Shown: positions 111 to 62,100 of the stretch, in pieces
Layout of the letters: every line of letters starts with the position of its first letter
Numbering within the stretch: the stretch's first letter is position 1
Assembly (NCBI GenBank): GCA_900095095.1
Contig: FMBT01000316.1
Coordinates: 310,001 to 374,000, forward strand
Length of the DNA stretch: 64,000 nt
Direction of reading: 5' to 3'
Source: Fragilariopsis cylindrus CCMP1102
Lineage: Eukaryota; Bacillariophyta; Bacillariophyceae; Bacillariales; Bacillariaceae
Program-made: the position numbers and the translations under genes
The notes under the pieces: generated by a model
Told to the model about the DNA's origin: nothing
Databases searched by the model: none
The model's input: the letters and a program-made list of their open reading frames with translations, nothing else

Positions 111-181
111 GCATCATTAGTTTAGTGGTAAAATATCTGCCTTCCAAGCAGATGTCCCGAGTTCGATTCCCGGATGATGCA
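111..181 (+). tRNA. tRNA-Gly (anticodon UCC)
   Basis: This folds as a full cloverleaf. The 7-bp acceptor stem pairs gcatcat (111-117) with atgatgc (174-180), and the discriminator A is at 181. The anticodon stem tctgc/gcaga encloses loop cttccaa, which gives anticodon TCC and reads GGA glycine codons. The T arm carries the standard gttcgattc box. There is no intron and CCA is not encoded, as is normal for eukaryotic nuclear tRNA genes. A T-rich tract follows at about 183-192 and could be the Pol III terminator. Confidence 0.95.
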
Positions 182-725: not shown

Positions 726-3604
726 ATGTCTTCTACTTCCGAGTCTGAACTACAACCCATTGTCGATGCCGATGATTTGTATTACCTTGATTTATCATTT
801 AGTGATGAATTTTCATCATCAACATTAGAAGAAAATGTGCAGAATCAAGTAAAAGAAATGGATTTAATACTTATGAACTTATATCCAACTACAAAAGCAG
901 AATTAGAAGGATGGGAATGGTATAAAGGTATATTCCAATCTCCACTATTGACGGTACTATTGTTTGTTATCCCTTTCTTGCTATTGTTTTTATCAACAAT
1001 TCTATTTTGTGTTAACAAAAAACGTCGTAAACGTATTAGTACAGACGGTGATGGCGATGACAATAAAAATGATACTACAGGTATTATTACAACTACTGTT
1101 TCAGCTCAGTCGCGTTATTCTATTGCTGCATCACGTCGTCGACGAGGATCACCTGCCGATGATGATGACGTCGTCGTCTTATCATCACCATCATCATCGT
1201 CCTCAACATTGAGTATGTTTTGTTCATGGTTCCGACGTGTAATTTGGAAAGAAGGATTGCGTATTGAAACGTCCTCATTAAATGTCAAGGATATACTTGA
1301 AAAAGAAATTGATACTATGCAAAAATCGAAGATGACTATTAATGGCAATAATGTTAGTAATAATTCATATCGATTTCAACGTGCTGGAAAACTTTTCAAA
1401 ATCCATCCAAGATCACATATAACAGAAGATGATATACGTAAAGTATATCCTGACTTAGATACTAGTGAAAATGACAGCGGCGATGACGATGACGATGGCA
1501 ACGGCAATAATAGTAATGGCAACAATGGCAATGGCAATGCCAATGCCAATGCCAATACCAATAATTACTATGATAGTAATCGTGTTGTATTATTTTTTAG
1601 ATTAGCATCAATATTTGTATCATGTGGTATGTCAACAATAGAAAATCATGAAATACTCCACAATGTATCAAAAGCATTACATTTACCATTATTATCAAAA
1701 TTAGAATTAGGTTTAAATGAAATAACAGTCCAATTTGAGTTAAGTAGTCCAGTTGTTACAATACAATGTTCAACTGCAGCATTTTATCAATTAAGTTTAT
1801 TAAGTCGATCACAACAATTAGCATACTATATAATTAAAAATGGAAATAGGAATAGTAGACAAAGCAGCAGCTTATTCATTCCAGCTTCTGTATACTTGCG
1901 TGTACTAGATGAACTAGAACAAGATAATGCATCTGATCCATATGGTTGGTTAATAAAAATATCTGCTATCTACATAGTTTGTGTATTCGCACCAGTCTCC
2001 GTTTATAATGGTGGATATATTAATTTATATTGGTCGTCTATCATTAGTATTGCAATTGTTATTGTATTATTAGTATTACAGTCGGGAATTGTACCATCCA
2101 GTGTTAGTGATCGATGGGAATGTCCAATTGTATCATTTATTACTGGTCTATTAAGTTCAATATTATGGCAAATTACAGCAGATAATGGTCATATATGGCA
2201 AGATATGGATTTATATCAGCATTTAGATCAATGTGCAGCTAATTATACAATTGGTGTATTACTTATATGGTTTCCTGGATCAACATTAGTATACGGCGCA
2301 CATGAAGTATGTTTAGGTAGTTATACCAATGGCGGGATACGTTTAATTAAAGGTATTGTTAGTGCTATGGTAATAGCATTATTTTATACATTAGGTTGGC
2401 AATATTGGGGAAGGAATTGGGCATCGAATGAAACAATGAATGGTATACCAACAAATTTATATAACACTACTGGTGGTATTGCAAGTTTACCACCATCCAT
2501 TGATTGTACGACACCAAATGATATCGAACTACCATGGTATATAAATCAAGTTGCATTTGCAATACCATTAAATGCAGCAACTATGATTGTTTTTAATATT
2601 CGATTACGTGATACACCGGGTGTTTTTTTAGTGGCACAGGCAACATACTGTGTCCAAGGTGCGCTTGGTAGTTGTGGCGGCGAGAATGATGTATATTGTG
2701 GTCTACCTACATATGTGAATGTATTAATTGTTGCATTTGCTGGTGGATGCTTTTCTGAAATCAATACATTGATTACTGGTTTTAGTAAGTACGGTTCAAT
2801 GTTAGCGATCATCTTTGTATTAGCACCAGGTGCGGGTGCAGTAAAGGCAATTTTAGGAGGTAAGTTTTCTTTTTCTGTTGTTCTTTTCTTACTTCACGAA
2901 GTGGCTTTCTTTAATTTATTGTAAATGACGGAATAATGACGACAATGATACAGAGTTTTTGTTCCACTTCTTGTACAAAAAAATGCTACAAAAAACAACC
3001 AAGTACAAAAATAGAGACAAAACAAAACAAAACAAAACAAACGATATCGACAATGATAGGATTTGACCCTACGCCCACAACGTACAAGAGATTAGCAATC
3101 TCCCGCCTTACAAACCACTCGGCAACAACATTGTCAGACTATTACATTTCCTACACATCATTGAGCACTGGTTATACTGTAATCGCTGGCATGTACCCCT
3201 TTTAATCTTCTCTCTCATTTTACTCATGAACGATTTTCCCACTCTCCATGTACTATACGCTCACTTTCAAATTTATCAAAAACAAAACAAAAAAAAACAA
3301 AAACAAAATGAATGGCATAGCATTCCATCGTACGGAGGGAGATGATAGAGGCAATGAAGCTACTATTTGGGAAAGCGTTGTCTTTGAGGGTGTTGCGTAC
3401 GCTGTTGGGTTTTATCTTGCATTTGACGTTCTTAGTCCGATCGTGACGTTTATTACAGAGGCGGTCATTACTGTCAAAGACGAGGCCGTTGATGTCAATA
3501 ATAATGACGATGACTCAAGTGGTAGTGTTGGTGGTGGTAGCAATCATAAACAAGATACAACTACTACCTATGGTGTTATTAACGTGGAAGAAAATTCAGA
3601 CTGA
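726..3604 (+). CDS. ThrE/Prm10-like (DUF1212-family) multi-span membrane transporter, two exons
   Basis: Exons are 726-2859 and 3321-3604, with a phase-1 intron (gtaagt ... catag); spliced length is about 805 aa. I chose the ATG at 726 over the in-frame one at 636 because the extra 30 residues come from a CTCAAA repeat that looks like leader. The protein has an acidic N-terminus, a membrane segment near residue 90, a long Asp/Asn-rich linker, then the ThrE-type N domain (FFRLASIFVSCGMSTIENHE...) and a C-terminal block of about 9-10 hydrophobic segments. The core motif IWFPGSTLVYGAHEVCLG matches the Pro-Gly loop of the threonine/serine exporter and pheromone-regulated Prm10 families. Family members move small amino acids or related solutes across membranes; the substrate and membrane here are unknown. 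Exon 2 supplies the last hydrophobic span (VAYAVGFYLAFDVLSPIVTF). A tRNA-Ser gene lies antisense inside the intron. Confidence 0.8.
3048..3135 (-). tRNA. tRNA-Ser (anticodon GCU), inside an intron of the opposite-strand gene
   Basis: Read on the minus strand this is an 88-nt class II tRNA. Acceptor GACAATG (plus 3129-3135) pairs with CATTGTC (plus 3049-3055), and the discriminator is G. The D arm has the Ser-type GCCGAGTGG box. Anticodon loop TTGCTAA within stem GGAGA/TCTCT gives GCU, which reads AGC/AGU serine. A long variable arm follows, then T arm GTAGG-GTCAAAT-CCTAT. It lies wholly inside the 461-nt intron (2860-3320) of the plus-strand ThrE-like gene, in antisense orientation. The extra arm and the G discriminator fit serine identity rather than leucine. 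Confidence 0.93.
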
Positions 3605-4867: not shown

Positions 4868-7800
4868 TTATGTATGATTTGACAAATTGGAATCTAATGC
4901 ATTTGATGATGATAAAATGTAAGAAGTATCAAAATGGCATGGTGAGAAAACAACAGAAATAACAGTAAATGGCAGCAGAATAATATTTAGTTTGATTACT
5001 TACCAAAATTAGAATCATAAAGTAAGGTTAACAATCCTATCTCACTTGGAATGGGACCAAATAGCTCATTTGATTCTGACAGTTTGGTGATAAAAAAATG
5101 TAAGAAGTATCAAAATGGCATGGTGAGAAAGCAACAACAAAAAAAGGTAAATGGCAGCAGAAAAATACTCAATTCAATTACCTACCCAAATGAAGAGTAA
5201 AAAGTGAAGTCATCATTCCAATCTCACTTGGAATACTACCAGTAAGATTATTGTTATCTATTGCATTTGGTGGTAAAATATGACAAGTATTAAAATGGCA
5301 TTGTGAGAAAACAACAGGAAAAACAGCAAATGGAAGAAGACAAATACCCAACTCAATTACTTACCCAAATGAAGAGTAAAAAGTGAAGTCATCATTCCGA
5401 TCTTACTTGGAATAGTACCAGTAAGATTATTGTTATCTATTGCATTTGGTTGTAAAATGTGAGAAGTATAAAGATGGTATTGTGAGGAAAAAACAGATGT
5501 AACAGTTAATGGAAGCAGAAAAATACTCAATTCAATTACTTACCCAAATGAAGAGTAAAAAGTGAAGTCATCATTCCAATCTCACTTGGAATACTACCAG
5601 TAAGATTATTGTTATCTATTGCATTTGGTGGTAAAATATGACAAGTATTAAAATGGCATTGTGAGAAAACAACAGGAAAAACAGCAAATGGAAGAAGACA
5701 AATACCCAACTCAATTACTTACCCAAATGAAGAGTAAAAAGTGAAGTCATCATTCCGATCTTACTTGGAATAGTACCAGTAAGATTATTGTTATCTATTG
5801 CATTTGGTTGTAAAATGTGAGAAGTATAAAGATGGTATTGTGAGGAAAAACAGATGTAACAGTTAATGGAAGCAGAAAAATACTCAATTCAATTACATAC
5901 CAAAATAAAGATTTGTAAGTGAGGTCATCAGTCCAATCTCACTTGGAATACTACTAGTAAAATTATTGCCACCTAATGCATTTGATGATAACATGTGAGA
6001 GGTATAAAAATGGCATAGTGAGAAAACAACAGATATAACAGTTAATGGAAGAAGACAGATACTCAAATCAATTACTTACTTAAATACAGAGTTCCAAGTG
6101 AGGTCATCAATCCAATCTCACTTGGAATGGTACCAGTTAGCTCATTTTCATCTATTGCATTTGGGGATAAATTGTAGGAAGTATAAAAATGGCACTGTGA
6201 GAAAACAACAGATGTAACAGTTAATGGAAGCAGAAAAATAGTCAATTCAATTACTTACCCAAATTAAGATATGTAAGGGAGGTCATCAATCTAATCTCAT
6301 TTGGAATTGAACCAGTAAAATTATTGCCACCTAATGCATTTGATGATAACATGTGAGAGGTATAAAAATGGCATAGTGAGAAAACAACAGATATAACAGT
6401 TAATGGAAGAAGACAGATACTCAAATCAATTACTTACTTAAATACAGAGTTCCAAGTGAGGTCATCAATCCAATCTCACTTGGAATGGTACCAGTTAGCT
6501 CATTTTCATCTATTGCATTTGGGGATAAATTGTAGGAAGTATAAAAATGGCACTGTGAGAAAACAACAGATGTAACAGTAAATGGAAGCAGAATAATAGT
6601 CAATTCAATTACTTACCCAAATTAAGATTTGTAAGTGAGGTCATCAGTCCAATCTCACTTGGAATTGAACCAGTAAAATTATTGCCACCTAATGCATTTG
6701 ATGATAACATGTGAGAGGTATAAAAATGGCATAGTGAGAAAACAACAGATATAACAGTTAATGGAAGAAGACAGATACTCAAATCAATTACTTACTTAAA
6801 TACAGAGTTCCAAGTGAGGTCATCAATCCAATCTCACTTGGAATGGTACCAGTTAGCTCATTTTCATCTATTGCATTTGGGGATAAATTGTAGGAAGTAT
6901 AAAAATGGCACTGTGAGAAAACAACAGATGCAACAGTAAATGGAAGCAGAATAATAGTCAATTCAATTACTTACCCAAATTAAGCCTTGTAAGTGAGGTC
7001 ATCAGTCCAATCTCACTTGGAATGGGACCAAAAACAGCCATGCCTCCTAATGCATTTGGTGATCAATTGTGAGAAGTATAAAGTGGCATTGTCAGAAAAC
7101 AACAGATGTAACAGTAAAAGGAAGCAGAAAAATACCCAATTCAATTACTTACCCAAGTCAAGATTTTTAAGTGAGGTCATCAGTCCAATCTCACTTGGAA
7201 TACTACCGGTAAGACCATTGTTTTCTATTGCATTTGGTGGTAAAATGTGAGAAGTATAAAAATGGTATGAGAACATAATATACAAGATATCGAAATTGAA
7301 TAGCAGAATAACAGATTGATCACTTACTCATATCCAAACTTATTACAGTTCCTTCATCACATATGATGCTGGGCCAAACACATTGTCTTGTTGTTCTATT
7401 CAATGTGTAATTAGGAGAGTTGTAGGCAGCAAAGTAAATTACAGCTAGTGCATATCTTTCAAGAAAGAAAGGGTTCTCACACATCGAGTTCTCTGATTCA
7501 TCATTCATTAACCAACTGATTGCTTTTGCTGTTGGGTCATAATCAATACTAGTATAAACAGTTGATTTATCAATATAATCAGAAAGCTTATCAAGATAAC
7601 ATTCTGGTATCCTTCTAAAGTTGTAGGTACTTTCTTTAGCACTAGAAGACTGAGAAATTTCAATTGAATTACTTTCATTAGATTGTTTGTCTCCATGTAG
7701 AATTGTATAGTCTGCATACCAAATTGAATCATCTACACTACCATCATTTCTAATAGTCATGGTACAATCAGCACCATCACTAACCATAATCGTTTCATTT

Positions 7801-9977
7801 TGATTTTCCATGGACTTATCAACATAAATGTTCAGAACATTACTTCCATCACAGTCAATGAATAGTAATGGCTTTATTGGATTTTTTCTTAACCTCTCTA
7901 TATACCTCTCTATATAAAAGTCGCTATTACCAACACTATTCCTAAGAATATCATTAATAGTTGAACTTTTATTAAACCCATCTGGAAATAAATACGGATT
8001 ATCATCATATTGGAATTGAGGTTCAAAACTGGATAAAATGGTATCAAGACGAATAGTTATAGGGACCATATCAGGATCTGTACAATCTGGAAAACCATAT
8101 CCCGTAGCATTAGTTGTACCAAAGGTATTCTTGAGTGATCCAATTCCACAATTGGGTTTAGAACAAGTAGCAGCACAACAATCTCCACCATCATATTGAA
8201 AATCAAACTTATTAAAAATTGAATCACAATTGCCATCATTTATAAACGATGAACAAGTATTATTATTTAATTCAATATCACCATTGTAAAACTCTATAAA
8301 GGAAAGATCAAGAGGCGTATTACTCGGAGTAAACCATTGTTCTTCAAACATTGTTGAAACATCAAAGGTATCTGTTTCTGAAGAACGAGCTAATTCATTA
8401 CCACTGCCAACTGCCTCACAAGCATTAGTATTGTTACCCTTGAAGAGGATCCAGCGACGATTAATAATGCAATATCCAAATTTAGCACCATCAGCCTTGT
8501 TTCCAAAATCTTCATAGAACCTTCTTCCAAATCCTTCTTTCCTATGAATTGCAGTGTCATTCTTCTCGTAGCAGCCATTGTATACCTGGAGTCCTTGTTC
8601 CTCATCTTGAAATTGAACCCTAAATATTTTGGTGACCCAATGATTATTACTTTCTTGACGAATAATCATAAAACATATCATTGAAAACAATATTACACCA
8701 ATGGGGATGATAGTACACAAATATCTAACATGCTTGTATTTCCTGTAAAGGCATCTGGGAAGTGGTAGCTTCTCAATGCGTTTTGCTTCCTCTTCTAACT
8801 TTGGTCCATACTTTCCCCACTTAATAATTTCAAATCCAACATTGTCAAGAGTTGAAATAAAATTAATTGCTGTGAAATTTAAGATGATTTCAATTGTATC
8901 GGATGAAGCCAATACAAGTAAGAGTGTTACAATTATTGCAAAAATACCCTGACTTAAACGTAGAATAGAAGCAAATACCATGCACCCAAGCTTATCGTCA
9001 CTTGTTGCCTGATTAAAACGTGGAAACAATTCAACAGCTGTAACAACGTCAAGCACAGTTGAATCTGCAAAAATAACATATGACAATGTAGCTGTAATTT
9101 GGGTAGCTCTAACTGGTGGACTAACATTTGATGGAACAAATCCTGCAATTATTGCTAAAAGAGATTCATTTCCCCAATCAGGATTATCCACGTCATCATT
9201 ACTGGACCAGTCCGGATGGGTTAAACCAAGTACCATCAGTACAAGGAATGTCATCTGGAACAGGTACACCATTAAACCAAATGAAAAAAAAACAGGATTC
9301 CCAACAGGACCATGAAGAGATAAAAGCGAGTAGGTATCTGCAGGATACGGCCTGCTACTGAAAGTACTACTACTACCATCATCTTTGTTATTGTATAGTA
9401 CTGGTTGTTCTGCAACATTCTTGTTGCTCCCTCCAGTATTGTCTCGTCCTTCTTCTGATATACTATCAGAAAAATGGACTATTCCTAAGATATCGTTGTT
9501 ATTATTGGTATTGATATTAAAATTTAGGGTGTTTTTGTTACTGGGTGGTAATACTAATACTGCAGCTTCCTTATTGTTACATCCTCCTCCTCCTTCTTCT
9601 TCTTTTTCTTCTTTATCTTGTGGTCTAACGCTGGAAGGATTAACTCTTTCAGTATCTTTATTTGCATTACTTGACAACTTCTTCTTCTTCTTCTTTTTTG
9701 CAACTGTTGAGGACGATTCCAACATTATGCTGTCATTGTTATTCTTGCTGTTGTAGTCTTCAGAGGCAAAAACAATAGGAATGTCAATCGATTTGTTTCT
9801 TTCATTTTCGTCACTATTGGATGTACTATGATCATCAGTTGCATTGAAACCACTATTGTTGTTATTGCTTTCATTATGTGCTACATGATTACTATTATTG
9901 TTTTTATCATCATTAATTATACTAATTCCAATAATGCTACCATCAATGTAGTCGTTTTTATCTTGAGGAAGACTCAT
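4868..9977 (-). CDS. Multi-span LNR/LRR membrane protein with one-exon-per-LRR tail (15 exons)
   Basis: Exon 1 is 9977-7328. Then come thirteen 72-nt exons: 7224-7153, 7046-6975, 6867-6796, 6688-6617, 6509-6438, 6330-6259, 6151-6080, 5972-5901, 5794-5723, 5615-5544, 5436-5365, 5257-5186 and 5075-5004. The terminal exon is 4893-4868. All introns are phase 1; the spliced product is 1203 aa. Exon 1 encodes a disordered Asn/Ser/Lys-rich N-terminus (to about 225) and hydrophobic segments at about 230-255, 300-320, 340-370 and 419-438. It also encodes an ectodomain with a Notch-type LNR module near 573-605 (CSSFINDGNC ... YDGGDCC) and an LRR N-cap (CVWPSIICDEGTVISLDM). Each small exon adds one plant-type 24-residue LRR of the form NNFTGSIPSEIGLMTSLTNL. 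LRR receptors bind extracellular ligands; the ligand and signalling output here are unknown, and no kinase domain is present. The final exon stops part-way into a further repeat. Confidence 0.88.
5004..7224 (-). repeat. Tandem array of ~179-bp exon+intron units (13 LRR exons)
   Basis: Thirteen 72-nt exons recur every 178-179 bp (one interval is 182), with 106-107-nt introns that are also repeats of one another. A higher-order period of about 358 bp is visible. Units starting 6080, 6438 and 6796 are nearly identical, as are 5186/5544 and 5365/5723. Units 5901, 6259 and 6617 form a third class. This indicates repeated unequal crossing-over or gene conversion with a two-LRR block as the unit. 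Donors are GTAAGT except GTATGT (5895-5900) and GTAGGT (5180-5185). Confidence 0.93.
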
Positions 9978-12972: not shown

Positions 12973-13020
12973 AATAAAACGAAAACTGTATCGTCTATTT
13001 TCTATGAATGAAAAAAATAA

Positions 13021-13284
13021 AAAATGAAAGAAAGATTCTTCTGTTGCACACTTATATCTAAAGCATGAATTAAAATTGGATCTAATTGAATTGTACATGT
13101 AGTTAGTTACGACAACTAAGGAAAATACAGATACTAATAGTATATTAAAAAATGATATAATAAAAAATGAAAGAAAGATTCTTCTGTTGCACACTTATAT
13201 AAAGCATGAATTAAAATTGGATCTAATTGTACATGTAGTTACGACAACTAAGGAAAATACAGATACTAATAGTATATTAAAAAA
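13021..13284. repeat. Two tandem copies of a ~143-bp unit
   Basis: The segment beginning aaaatgaaagaaagattctt (13021) recurs at 13164. It runs in both cases through the conserved gacaactaaggaaaatacag block to a tatattaaaaaa tail. Copy 2 differs by small deletions (for example loss of cta, of aattg and of ag in the middle). It lies just downstream of the tetraspan gene, so one or both copies may be in its 3' UTR. Confidence 0.85.
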
Positions 13285-54799: not shown

Positions 54800-55277
54800 T
54801 AATAACAATATTAATAATATTAATACTGTAATAGGACTACAAACAATATTGTAGTAAAGATTCAATACAATACAATACAATACAACTCCATGAGTATTTA
54901 TACAGTATTTTGCTAAAATGAAAAGTAAGATAAAATAAAAGAAACGCGTATGATAGGGAAAAAAGCACACAATATACAAACAAACGAAACAAAAGAAAAA
55001 CTCTATTGATATTGAAACTACTATAAATAATACTATATATAAATTAGAAAGATTTAAATATGGTACTACATACATTGTACACTAGGACCTACACTACAGT
55101 ACTAGCTAGTAGCCTATTGTAGCAATCCTCGCGCCCGCGCCGTCTCCGCCGCTGCACAACAAAGTCAATCAGTGTCTGTATTATTCCAATGAATATACTG
55201 TACGATACTGTTATATTATACTGCCTGCTGTATTTTGCCTGCTAGTTGTACAGGGCCTTGCGGCACTAATAAATTTT

Positions 55278-55480
55278 GGGGGTTTCGTAGAAACTAAATA
55301 ATTTTGTTTATTTTTGCAATTTTCAATTGGGGGTTTCGTAGAAACTAAATAATTTTGTTTATTTATACAATTTTCAATTGGGGGTTTCGTAGAAACTAAA
55401 TAATTTTGTTTATTTTTGCAATTTTCAATTGGGGGTTTCGTAGAAACTAAATAATTTTGTTTATTTTTGCAATTTTCAAA
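55278..55480. repeat. Four tandem copies of a 51-bp unit
   Basis: Copies start at 55278, 55329, 55380 and 55431, each beginning gggggtttcgtagaaacta. They are nearly identical; copy 2 has ata in place of the ttg of the others near its end. Because 51 is a multiple of 3 the minus strand stays open (55492-55211), reading a 17-residue repeat ENCKNKQNYLVSTKPPI. The partial inverted pair gtttc/gaaac occurs inside each unit (gtttcgtagaaac, a 5-bp stem with 3-nt loop). Confidence 0.92.
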
Positions 55481-58228: not shown

Positions 58229-59188
58229 ACTGTAATTAATTTGATTTTGTTTTTGATTTGCTTTGATTGCTACTGTACGTTACTTCACTTTAACTTTCGT
58301 TTTGTTTTTCTTCTTATCAACACACTCTCAACGGCTTTTGCTATGGGTATAGGAGGTAATGATAATTGATGATGTAATAATCTCCCTCGCTCAAAATTCA
58401 CATCATGACATCGACGACGTCCCCTTTGCCTCGGATGGAATTTTCGTCGTTGAGTTCGAAAAATTCAATATTTTTGTTGTGTAAGCAACGTTTTACACGT
58501 GCTTTCACGTGTAAGCACACGTCATACCGTACTGTACTACTAGTAGATCAACGTCAAAACAAAACGCGAACCTCAAGATTCAGCTAATTATCTATGATTG
58601 GCTATCATCTTGAAGTCGATCCTTGACAAATAAAATGTTGACAACCAAAACTCTAACCCTAACTGATTGCTCGATTTGCTCACCCACGTCATCATCCTTC
58701 GAAAAATTATTCAATCACGAGTACCAGTTAGTCCCACGAGTAAAGGGATGATCTTGTACTTTGGGGAGAGAGACGAGGGAGAATGGTACGTTTGTCTTCC
58801 GCTTTAACTTCACAACATACTGTACTGTGCATACATTATGTACTGTAGACATGCCTGCGTGTGGATGTCATTACGGCATGGATGTGATCTTTTTTGTTTG
58901 TTTTTGAAAAAAATAATGCATCAAAAATCTCAAAGCAAAGCAATCCAAGAAGAATCGAAATCAATCATCATCACAAAACAACCACCAGAACTGCTCGCCT
59001 CGACAACTACTGACAACTGCTCGAGTGACTATGAACGCAAAAGTCTAGACAGACAAACAGAGAGAGAGAGAGAGAAGGAGAGACAAACAGAGAGAAAGAG
59101 AGAAAGAGAGAGAGCGAGAAGGAGAAAGAAAGAAAGAGAGAAAGAGAGACAGAAAGAAAGAATAAAAAATAGAGCAACAAGGTCTATT
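58229..59188. promoter_or_regulatory. Shared upstream region of MGDG synthase and tandem-PGAM genes
   Basis: These 960 bp lie between divergent starts. A GAGAGAGA/AAAGAGAG purine tract at 59058-59160 lies just before the PGAM start; it is open in frame with the PGAM gene but looks like leader. A perfect repeat of cacgtg-type sequence (ttacacgtgctttcacgtgtaagcacacgt, about 58490-58520) contains two inverted CACGTG E-box/G-box cores, which are common light- or clock-related sites in plants; relevance here is unproven. Confidence 0.5.
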
Positions 59189-62100
59189 ATGGCGATGATG
59201 ATGTTGATCCGTAATAGCAACAGCAACAGTAGCAGCGGCAGGAACAACAATAAGATCCGTACAAGCAGCAGCAGGAGGAGGAGGAGCGTACTAGCAGCAT
59301 CGAAGAAGAAATCTACTACTAGTACTGTTTCGATTATCACAATCACAACCGTTGTCATTGTCATCTTTCTTCCATTGTTGATGATAGTAACAACGGTGTT
59401 GAATCAACAACTTTGCGTTGAATCATTTTCATTCTCTTCTTCCTACTCAAGATCAAGAAATGCAAGACCGTCAACGACGACGACGACAACGACCGTAATA
59501 AAATCTGCATCATCTGTCGATAATGCAGATACAGATACAGATGCGTCGTTTGGTAGTACATCCAATGAAGAAGAAGAAAAAGAAGAGGCATATATTAACG
59601 CGTTGATAGATGAAGATTCGGTGTTACAGTACGGTGATGGCACAATCAAGAATGGATATAGTGGTACGACGTCTGGATATAGTCCATTTTTAGATAAGGA
59701 ATCATATATATCTACACCCAAGTGGTTTCAACCAACCAAAAAATTCTTTCATAGACGCAATGAAAGAAAAGTATTGAGAGAATCAAAATTAAATGAAATG
59801 AATGAAGATGGATATGGTGAAATGAGACGAAGTAGTATTGGTACTGTGAATAGTAAACGATCCTATATAAAACGAGTAATCAAAAAACCATATAGGAAAT
59901 TGAAAAAATTAATTACAAAAGATACAACAGAACCAGGAACTCTCATACTGGTCCGTCATGGTGAAAGTATTTGGAATAAAAATAAAACATTCACGGGATG
60001 GGCCGATCCAGACTTAACAATACAGGGATATCGAGAAGTCGAACATGCGGCACGTTTATTAATGGAAGGTGGATATCATTATGATATCCATGTCGTCTTT
60101 ACCTCACGATTAAAACGTGCAATACGTAGTACCTGGATTTTATTACAAGAATTTAATGAAGTGTATTTACCGGTCTTTAAATCATGGAGATTAAATGGTA
60201 AGTAAATGTGTAGTATTATTGTGCTATAGTTTTGTTTGTATTATTCGTCTTTTTGTTTCTTTTGTTCCAAATACCCGTCATCAATTCTCACACACGCCTT
60301 CACTGTCACACTCCATACACAAATAAACATTAGAACGTAATTATGGTGCATTAACAGGATTAAGTAAAACACAAACCGCCGAACGATTAGGTGCAGAATT
60401 AGTACAAGGATGGCGTGGTTCATTAACCAAAAAACCACCTCCGTTAGATATCAAAAATGATCCAATTCATTATCAACAATATTATCCCGGCAATGATCGG
60501 AAGTATGCAGATTTGACGGAAGATCAGATACCATTAACCGAATCATTAAAAGATTGTATGATACGAACCAAACCATTATGGGACGACAAAATTGTATATG
60601 AATTAAAAAAGGGTCGAAATGTATTAGTTGTCGCACATGCAAATACATTACGTGGATTAGTGAAAACAATAGATGATATTGGTGATGAAGAAATACAAAA
60701 TGTACAAATACCAACAGGTATACCAATAATATATAAATTTAAAAAGGATGTTGATACTGGACAATTAATATCAATTGATGATGATGATGGTGGGAATAGT
60801 AATTTAGTTAGTCAAGTACATATGAAAGGTAAATTTTTAGAAAAACCTGGTCTGTTAAAGGAAGCATTAAAATTAGAAGAAGGTTGGAAGGTATGTAAAT
60901 TTGTTTGTCTTATCTTGGATTGCTTGCTTTGCTTTGCTTTGACTGATATGAATATTGATTCGATTCTTACCCGCTGTCCCCACCTCTTATCACAATATTT
61001 ATAAAACAAAAAAAAACAAAAAAAAATTAAGGCACGTGTTCCTGGATATGATCCTATAATGCAGCGTCAAATTCGTCCAATGACAGGATTAGAACGTTCC
61101 TTATACAAATTAAATGCTGTACGTGAATTAGGTGCATGGGCAAATGAGTTTATTGATTTAGATATGTTAAAAAACAATGGTGATGGAAAAGTAGGAGAAG
61201 ATACTGATAGTAATGATGATGGGAATGGTATATTCTTTACAACTAATGGCAATGGTAACAATAAAATAGCACCAACAACAACCGCGATAGTAGCGAATAA
61301 CGGTAGAGGTGATGTTGGTGCAGACATTATAAGTGATCAAGAAGAGGATGATGTTAGTTCTTCTGCCATTGTCGATGATGATGATGATGATGATGATGGC
61401 GACGAGGATGAAAATGAAAATGCAGTTCCTACATTTTTTGCTCAACCTTGTGTTGTCCCCGATCGGGAAGGAGGGACCAATAACGACGACGAAGTTTCAT
61501 CATCTGGTGGTTCTAATACTCAGACAAAACGTCAAGATTCTGTTATTGTTATCATCCGGCATGGCAAAACGCAGCATAATAAATTAGGTCTGTTTACTGG
61601 TTGGGAGGATGCACCATTAGCAGAAGAAGGTATTGAGGAGGCAAAATTAGCTGGACGGAATTTAAAAAAGTTTGGTTTCGAATTTGATGTTGTGTATACG
61701 TCATGGTTAAGCCGTGCATTAGAAACTGCATGGTTTGTTATGGATGAAATGGATTGCTTATGGTTACCAATTGTTAAGACATGGCGTCTCAATGAACGTA
61801 TGTATGGTAATTTGACAGGCTTGTCAAAGCAGATGGTCAAACAACGGCATGGAGAAAAACAATTCAAAGGTAAGAATACGTGTATTTACAGTAATGTCTT
61901 ACAACTCCTGTCCTGCCATGTCCTGTTCAGTCTTGTCCGTCCATGCAAACAATATATTTTAGTGCGCCTTGCACTTTATATACTCTAATTTCCTCTGATA
62001 TGTTTGTTTTAATCTCGTGTGAATGATCCCCCCTAACAACCCAAATTTGATTTTCACAGCGTGGCGACGTGGATTTGATGTTCGACCTCCACCTGTTTCA

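Follow-up and report, generated by a model that had tools for sequence, protein, structure and literature searches.

The window, by which we mean the whole 64,000-nucleotide stretch of DNA analysed here, contains a gene whose LRRs are laid out one per exon in a tandem array. The question raised by this locus is whether such a layout lets the LRR domain of a protein change in length and make-up, and whether selection acts on the surface that results.

Gene model and predicted protein

On the minus strand we found 13 LRR exons of exactly 72 nt each, every one flanked by AG and GT, in phase 1 and with an open frame, and each exon corresponds to one plant-type LRR of 24 residues (Table 1). A first-pass annotation had described the same 72-nt, phase-1, one-repeat exons of 24 residues, and all 13 were recovered. 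The intron length of 106-107 nt that it gave held for 11 of the 13 introns that follow an LRR exon and failed for the two that follow the exons starting at 5257 and 5075, which are 110 nt long; the short terminal exon that closes the array, encoding DSNLSNHT and a stop, was missing from its list. An in-frame stop lies within the first three codons of all 13 following introns, so the array encodes LRRs only if it is spliced, and in the nine loci described below, taken together, 85 of the 95 introns have an in-frame stop within four codons. The exon joins of the window array are predicted from the sequence, and an intronless relative gives indirect support for splicing.

Table 1. Positions of the array, its exons and other features of the window
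Feature	Position	Strand	Details
Exon 1	7328..9977	-	883 codons plus one base; open frame with start; donor GTAAGT; low-complexity N-terminal part, three hydrophobic segments, cysteine- and sequon-rich region, LRR N-cap
Pre-array intron	7225..7327	-	103 nt; GT-AG
LRR exon 1	7153..7224	-	72 nt; phase 1
LRR exon 2	6975..7046	-	72 nt; phase 1; chimera-like
LRR exon 3	6796..6867	-	72 nt; phase 1; exon and intron unit same as those of exons 5 and 7
LRR exon 4	6617..6688	-	72 nt; phase 1
LRR exon 5	6438..6509	-	72 nt; phase 1
LRR exon 6	6259..6330	-	72 nt; phase 1
LRR exon 7	6080..6151	-	72 nt; phase 1
LRR exon 8	5901..5972	-	72 nt; phase 1
LRR exon 9	5723..5794	-	72 nt; phase 1; unit identical to exon 11 unit
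LRR exon 10	5544..5615	-	72 nt; phase 1; exon sequence the same as in exon 12
LRR exon 11	5365..5436	-	72 nt; phase 1
LRR exon 12	5186..5257	-	72 nt; phase 1
LRR exon 13	5004..5075	-	72 nt; phase 1; 96% shared with last array exon of C569
Terminal exon	4868..4893	-	LRR-exon remnant; same 26 nt after C569 array
Two head-to-tail 358-bp two-LRR blocks	5186..5900	-	copies 5544-5900 and 5186-5543
Whole tandem array	4892..7265	-	179 bp, 13.2 copies, score 2777 (TRF)
tRNA gene	111..181	+	Rfam
tRNA gene, weak	3048..3132	-	Rfam; 33 bits against a gathering score of 29
ThrE-like transporter gene			between the two tRNA genes
Tandem repeat	13016..13284		132 bp, two copies
Tandem repeat	55276..55479		51 bp, four copies, 97% matches, AT-rich stretch
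Two adjoining open frames	58808..61988		with histidine-phosphatase (phosphoglycerate-mutase-like) domains; may form a single two-domain gene

The gene is predicted to encode a protein of 1203 aa that ends in a C-terminal LRR domain. This protein contains three strong hydrophobic (membrane) segments at residues 234-252, 338-356 and 421-439, followed after residue 460 by 18 N-glycosylation sequons and 16 cysteines. Should the protein cross the membrane an odd number of times and have a cytosolic N-terminus, the LRRs would lie outside the cell, and we read the gene as one for a multi-pass membrane protein with a probably extracellular C-terminal plant-type LRR domain. The Pfam families LRR_1, LRR_4 and LRR_8 were above cut-offs when the first 1003 residues were scanned, and LRRs are all that Pfam reported; the Pfam scans of this protein showed neither a kinase nor any other signalling domain, no ROC-COR domain at E up to 1, and no Pfam family below E 0.9 in exon 1. 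Nor did a Pfam scan of the intronless relative find a kinase. The label of receptor given by the first-pass annotation is best taken as putative.

The repeats follow the consensus of the 24-residue plant-type LRR, LxxLxLxxNxLtGxIPxx. When the array was compared with the PDB, 157 sequences were retrieved at E up to 1e-10, the best solved relative being GSO1 (E 1.8e-133), with FLS2 at E 1.2e-119. Residues 4-316 of the spliced array align to residues 195-506 of the FLS2 chain in 4mn8 (313 versus 312 residues), which indicates that the exon joins keep the LRR register unbroken. The solved ectodomains of FLS2, GSO1, PEPR1 and ERL1 share with the window array the 24-residue plant-type LRR and its register; these are kinase receptors of land plants, and the resemblance is one of repeats, with no evidence of orthology.

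A family of arrays and its intronless member

The assembly comprises 67.9 Mb in 818 contigs with the haplotypes mixed, and 104 matches to the light-harvesting family in it point to a photosynthetic eukaryote, which from its gene content and the character of the genome is probably a diatom. Protein and DNA searches of this genome led to 15 regions that were fetched, eight of which share with the window an array of LRR exons strictly 72 nt long. These nine loci hold 95 such exons, 6 to 16 per locus: 14 in C635:60k, 9 each in C47, C367 and C108:41k, 11 in C569, 6 in C297, 8 in C704, 16 in C635:121k and 13 in the window. The equal-length symmetrical exons that define one-LRR-per-exon tandem arrays in general were thus found for 13 of 13 exons in the window and for the 95 in the nine loci. 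The other seven regions are C108:172k, which is an intronless array, five distant relatives (C108:424k, C791, C459 twice and C426) that have LRRs 72 nt apart and no array introns, and C91, which has other LRRs. The family has at least ten loci, in searches of which one scored 150 of its 462 candidates and with C507 outside the 15 regions fetched, and it may exceed ten. The first-pass annotation had included neither this family nor the intronless relative, nor the selection on the concave face reported below.

Exon number differs between close relatives, being 14 versus 9 in C635:60k and C47 and 9 versus 8 in C367 and C704. Between C635:60k and C47 the likeness covers the gene and the region downstream of it, and none of their seven longest matches lies further upstream. 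The array of C635:121k (C635:117001-127000) has 16 strict 72-nt exons, and its successive units, 187-190 bp long, are almost the same in sequence; several stops occur in its exon-1 matches, so that the locus is possibly a pseudogene. We also considered whether the array introns are mobile intron-like elements dispersed in the genome, an idea that was rejected: a two-unit DNA query, run with very common words skipped and with 14 candidates passing the first look, gave 58 matches, all of them at the ten family loci.

The intronless member, C108:172k, is one open frame of 1259 residues. It has the same N-cap, followed by exactly 13 x 24 residues and by EDSNVSNHTLCPF, where the window has DSNLSNHT, and TRF reports it as a 72-bp array of 12.6 copies. 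The join of exon 1 to the first LRR and the 12 joins between LRRs fall exactly where the window model places them, and the last join is one residue off. C108:172k therefore has the form expected of a spliced window message and lends the exon model indirect support, as judged from the two sequences.

How the intronless state arose can be approached from the exon-1 protein tree of 15 loci, in which C108:172k groups with the intron-bearing C367, C704 and C569 (UFBoot 88, FastTree 0.942) and deeper nodes are supported at only 45-63. This grouping suggests that introns were lost, and the loss may have been cDNA-mediated, most simply by recombination with cDNA of a spliced message. The opposite reading, in which the intronless state is ancestral and the other genes gained their array introns later, would draw on the five more distant relatives with LRRs 72 nt apart and no array introns, since in the wider family the contiguous arrangement of LRRs is probably the older one. 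It could also appeal to the 94% identity over 1398 bp that exon 1 of C108:172k shares with C569, because this stretch could reflect gene conversion that misleads the tree. We nevertheless hold an ancestral intronless state to be quite improbable, as the nesting of C108:172k with three intron-bearing genes would then mean that the same phase-1 introns were gained more than once. The lack of array introns in the distant relatives suggests that these introns were gained once in the family and then multiplied with the unit.

Turnover of units and probable selection on the concave face

Within the window array, shifting the sequence against itself by 1, 2 and 3 units gave 409/2220, 208/2035 and 361/1850 mismatching columns, and shifts of 4, 5 and 6 units gave 267/1665, 309/1480 and 252/1295. 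The two-unit shift has the fewest, 208 columns versus 409 for one unit, in agreement with the two-LRR higher-order period proposed in the first-pass annotation. The same source had block 5186-5543 repeated at 5544-5900 with about two changes, and we measured one substitution and one gap column; the units that it regarded as nearly alike, with exons ending at 6796, 6438 and 6080 (starts 6867, 6509 and 6151), are in fact identical at 179/179 positions. Exon and intron of one unit can differ in history. The exons starting at 5615 and 5257 are identical (0/72) and their introns are 27 differences and 3 gap columns apart, while the reverse is found for exons 2 and 4 (starts 7046 and 6688), which differ at 12/72 positions and have introns that differ at one. 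Such mosaic units are expected if the ends of exchanges fall inside units, and the runs of near-identity at the two-unit shift have their starts and ends in exons as well as introns. The idea that the module of exchange is a whole beta-strand straddling the intron, with breaks in the conserved core of the exon, was rejected: with eight loci pooled (C297, with too few units, being excluded), the correlation of an exon's end is 0.32 with the start of that same exon and 0.22 with the start of the following one (376 within-locus pairs), and the intervals of the difference span zero in 8 of 8 loci.

Units turn over within loci. Of 84 units, 54.0 have a closest relative from their own locus, compared with a mean of 9.2 and a maximum of 22.0 in 300 shuffles of the locus labels, and unit pairs less than 3% apart number 12 within loci and 3 between loci, all three of the latter between C367 and C704. 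The first-pass annotation had proposed that unequal exchange lengthens and shortens the array without touching the frame. The range of 6 to 16 exons across nine loci, the within-locus relatedness and the mosaics speak for this proposal, and unequal exchange would account for them, with the proviso that slippage and gene conversion would give like patterns. The part of the proposal that concerned length change between alleles did not find support at this locus, because the flank at 700-2700 has no other full-length match in the assembly and only one haplotype of the window locus is thus present.

Another pair of loci bears on alleles. C704 and C367 are collinear over 15-16 kb with 88-93% identity in long pieces, and a 3-kb piece of C704 aligns with C367 along 2999 bases (88%) and gives two further, partial matches in other places; the two loci are probably haplotypes, with a segmental duplication as the alternative. 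Their first two units are 98% alike and the remaining units do not pair in order, so that array content differs between alleles if C367 and C704 are alleles. In C704 (C704:11001-21000) the exon-1 frame is interrupted near its end, earlier than in C367 (C367:209001-219000), and its introns include two with roughly 33 bp more (212- versus 179-bp spacing). The assembly seems to keep both haplotypes of many regions, and the pairs C317/C341, C464/C117 and C629/C372 agree at 88 to 99.7% over the pieces that were compared. A general edge effect, with outer units conserved and inner ones turning over, was not supported by a comparison of seven loci, in which first, last and middle exons are 77.2, 72.0 and 77.5% alike between loci. 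Despite this, terminal units are shared in single cases: the last exon of the window and that of C569 at 96%, and the first two units of C367 and C704 as given above.

In the LRR fold, six residues per repeat have side chains that point out of the concave beta-sheet. The six corresponding codons were chosen beforehand from the fold, and all 24 codons of the repeat were compared within loci (seven loci, 73 units, 360 pairs), the units compared being repeats of one protein and not alleles. Over the seven loci, pN at the concave six was 0.42-0.57, with an exon pS of 0.16-0.25 and intron differences of 0.11-0.20 per site, and the 95% bootstrap interval of the difference between concave pN and exon pS (the former minus the latter) lay above zero in 7/7. 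The window alone gave 0.503, 0.248 and 0.148 for concave pN, exon pS and introns, and the intronless C108:172k a concave pN of 0.589 versus 0.279. In the pooled pN values the six concave codons are the six highest of the 24, for which the chance under random ranking is 1 in 134,596 by our own arithmetic. The signal is weak or absent in C635:121k (concave pN 0.519, pS 0.479, concave pS 0.577) and in C297 (0.655, 0.435 and 0.511). Exon distance exceeds intron distance in 7/9 loci, with the reverse in these same two, which are the most divergent. Synonymous sites are more divergent than introns, with an interval above zero in 5/7 loci, so the introns are not a clean neutral measure and may be constrained or homogenised. 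Recent positive selection and selection that keeps old differences against homogenisation or conversion would both fit the concave excess.

Candidate explanations and known systems

We consider it likely that the array generates diversity for recognition, with units exchanged without loss of frame within a ten-member family and selection acting on the binding face. The LRRs would be copies of one exon-intron unit, a 72-nt exon with an intron of about 107 nt, and the symmetrical exon in this unit would allow gain, loss and exchange by unequal exchange or gene conversion with the frame kept. Such turnover has gone on repeatedly within each locus of the family, one member of which would have lost all of its array introns, and selection would hold the LRR scaffold constant while the six surface residues of each concave beta-strand diversify. 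The outcome would be membrane proteins whose recognition surfaces vary in length and make-up, and the changing partner of the putative recognition domain could be a pathogen, a competitor or a mate.

The same anatomy could have other causes. Since all 13 exons are 72 nt long and in phase 1, any one of them could be skipped in frame, and symmetrical exons might serve alternative splicing, giving isoforms with different numbers or sets of LRRs, with turnover of the DNA as a by-product; in brown algae the same layout is accompanied by splice variants of different LRR content (PMC11378527). We regard this as unlikely, because three identical units and two near-identical 358-bp blocks would enlarge a splice repertoire little and because C108:172k has kept 13 intact LRRs without any splicing. 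A structural or adhesive array with no recognition role, its length drifting by neutral slippage and unequal exchange, is a somewhat weaker candidate and in our view distinctly unlikely. Tandem arrays drift anyway, and C635:121k, for all the stops in its exon-1 matches, still has near-identical 190-bp units, but the non-synonymous excess at the six concave codons in 7/9 loci is unexpected under neutral drift. Very improbable, finally, is that the near-identical units are in part an artefact of repeat collapse or expansion in the assembly. In length the identical units stay under or close to the limit at which short-read assemblies break down, in an assembly as fragmented and as mixed in haplotypes as this one; against this stand nine separate arrays with different unit orders, the distinguishability of most window units, and a layout of one LRR per 72-nt exon that is independent of the exact unit count.

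Diversification for recognition, our preferred explanation, can be set beside arrays known from other organisms. The LRR-ROCO genes of brown algae are reportedly the subject of work by Zambounis et al. 2012. Brown-algal LRR-ROCO genes have 72-bp one-LRR exons in phase 2, with exon shuffling, splice variants and positively selected concave sites (PMC11378527); they resemble the window array in having one LRR per 72-bp exon, shuffled and repeated exons, selected concave sites and a stramenopile host, the last a kinship that we infer. They differ in intron phase (2 versus 1) and in their ROC-COR GTPase, in place of which the window gene would encode a membrane protein with C-terminal plant-type LRRs. 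Near-identical introns, compared directly here, are not described for LRR-ROCO in the passages of PMC11378527 used for this comparison. In Tetrahymena, LRR exons of 90 bp in phase 2 form arrays, and unequal crossing over was proposed for them (PMC6564038); this organism shares with our loci the tandem exons of one exact length and one intron phase and an exon number that varies among in-paralogues; its 90 bp, phase 2 and thousands of genes contrast with 72 nt, phase 1 and the ten loci found here. Rice LRR kinases have 72-nt one-LRR exons with phase-2 introns (PMC3050792). Plant LRR receptor kinases of the ERECTA/SERK type are likewise similar in their 72-nt one-LRR exons, plant-type LRR and extracellular LRR domain; however, their phase-2 introns split the first Leu of xxLxLxx, whereas the phase-1 introns of the window lie 8 nt further on (own arithmetic), and they have a kinase, whereas Pfam scans found none in the window protein, which has membrane segments before its LRRs. 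In human NLRs and other gene families LRR units are also exons, with skipping allowed (PMC6642158), though the NLR-type LRRs are of another class and no recent DNA-level homogenisation is described for them in the passages of that source used here.

Arrays of one LRR per exon are thus already known from plants, brown algae and Tetrahymena, and the phase-1 form described here differs from them. An intron phase and position other than those of all three argues for independent invention, and the phase-1 LRR exon array probably has an independent origin. In diatoms, LRR genes stand out among the tandemly duplicated genes of Seminavis robusta (PMC7335047), and LRR receptor-like genes of Pseudo-nitzschia multistriata respond to sexual cues (PMC5485032). 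Our search of the open-access literature, a scope that most subscription papers fall outside, found no such array reported in a diatom.

A bolder proposal is that, in a single-celled alga, the array actively generates diversity, with exchange frequent enough, perhaps even within clonal populations, to yield new recognition surfaces, and with spliced messages that can return to the genome in intronless, fixed form. We offer this as a long shot; if true, DNA-level shuffling and RNA-level assembly would reinforce each other. Because introns and exons are copied together and an intronless relative serves as a control, the family offers a yardstick by which change of the binding surface can be measured against the linked intron. 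The arrays represent a candidate recognition system of phytoplankton that is directly testable by counting exons across strains.
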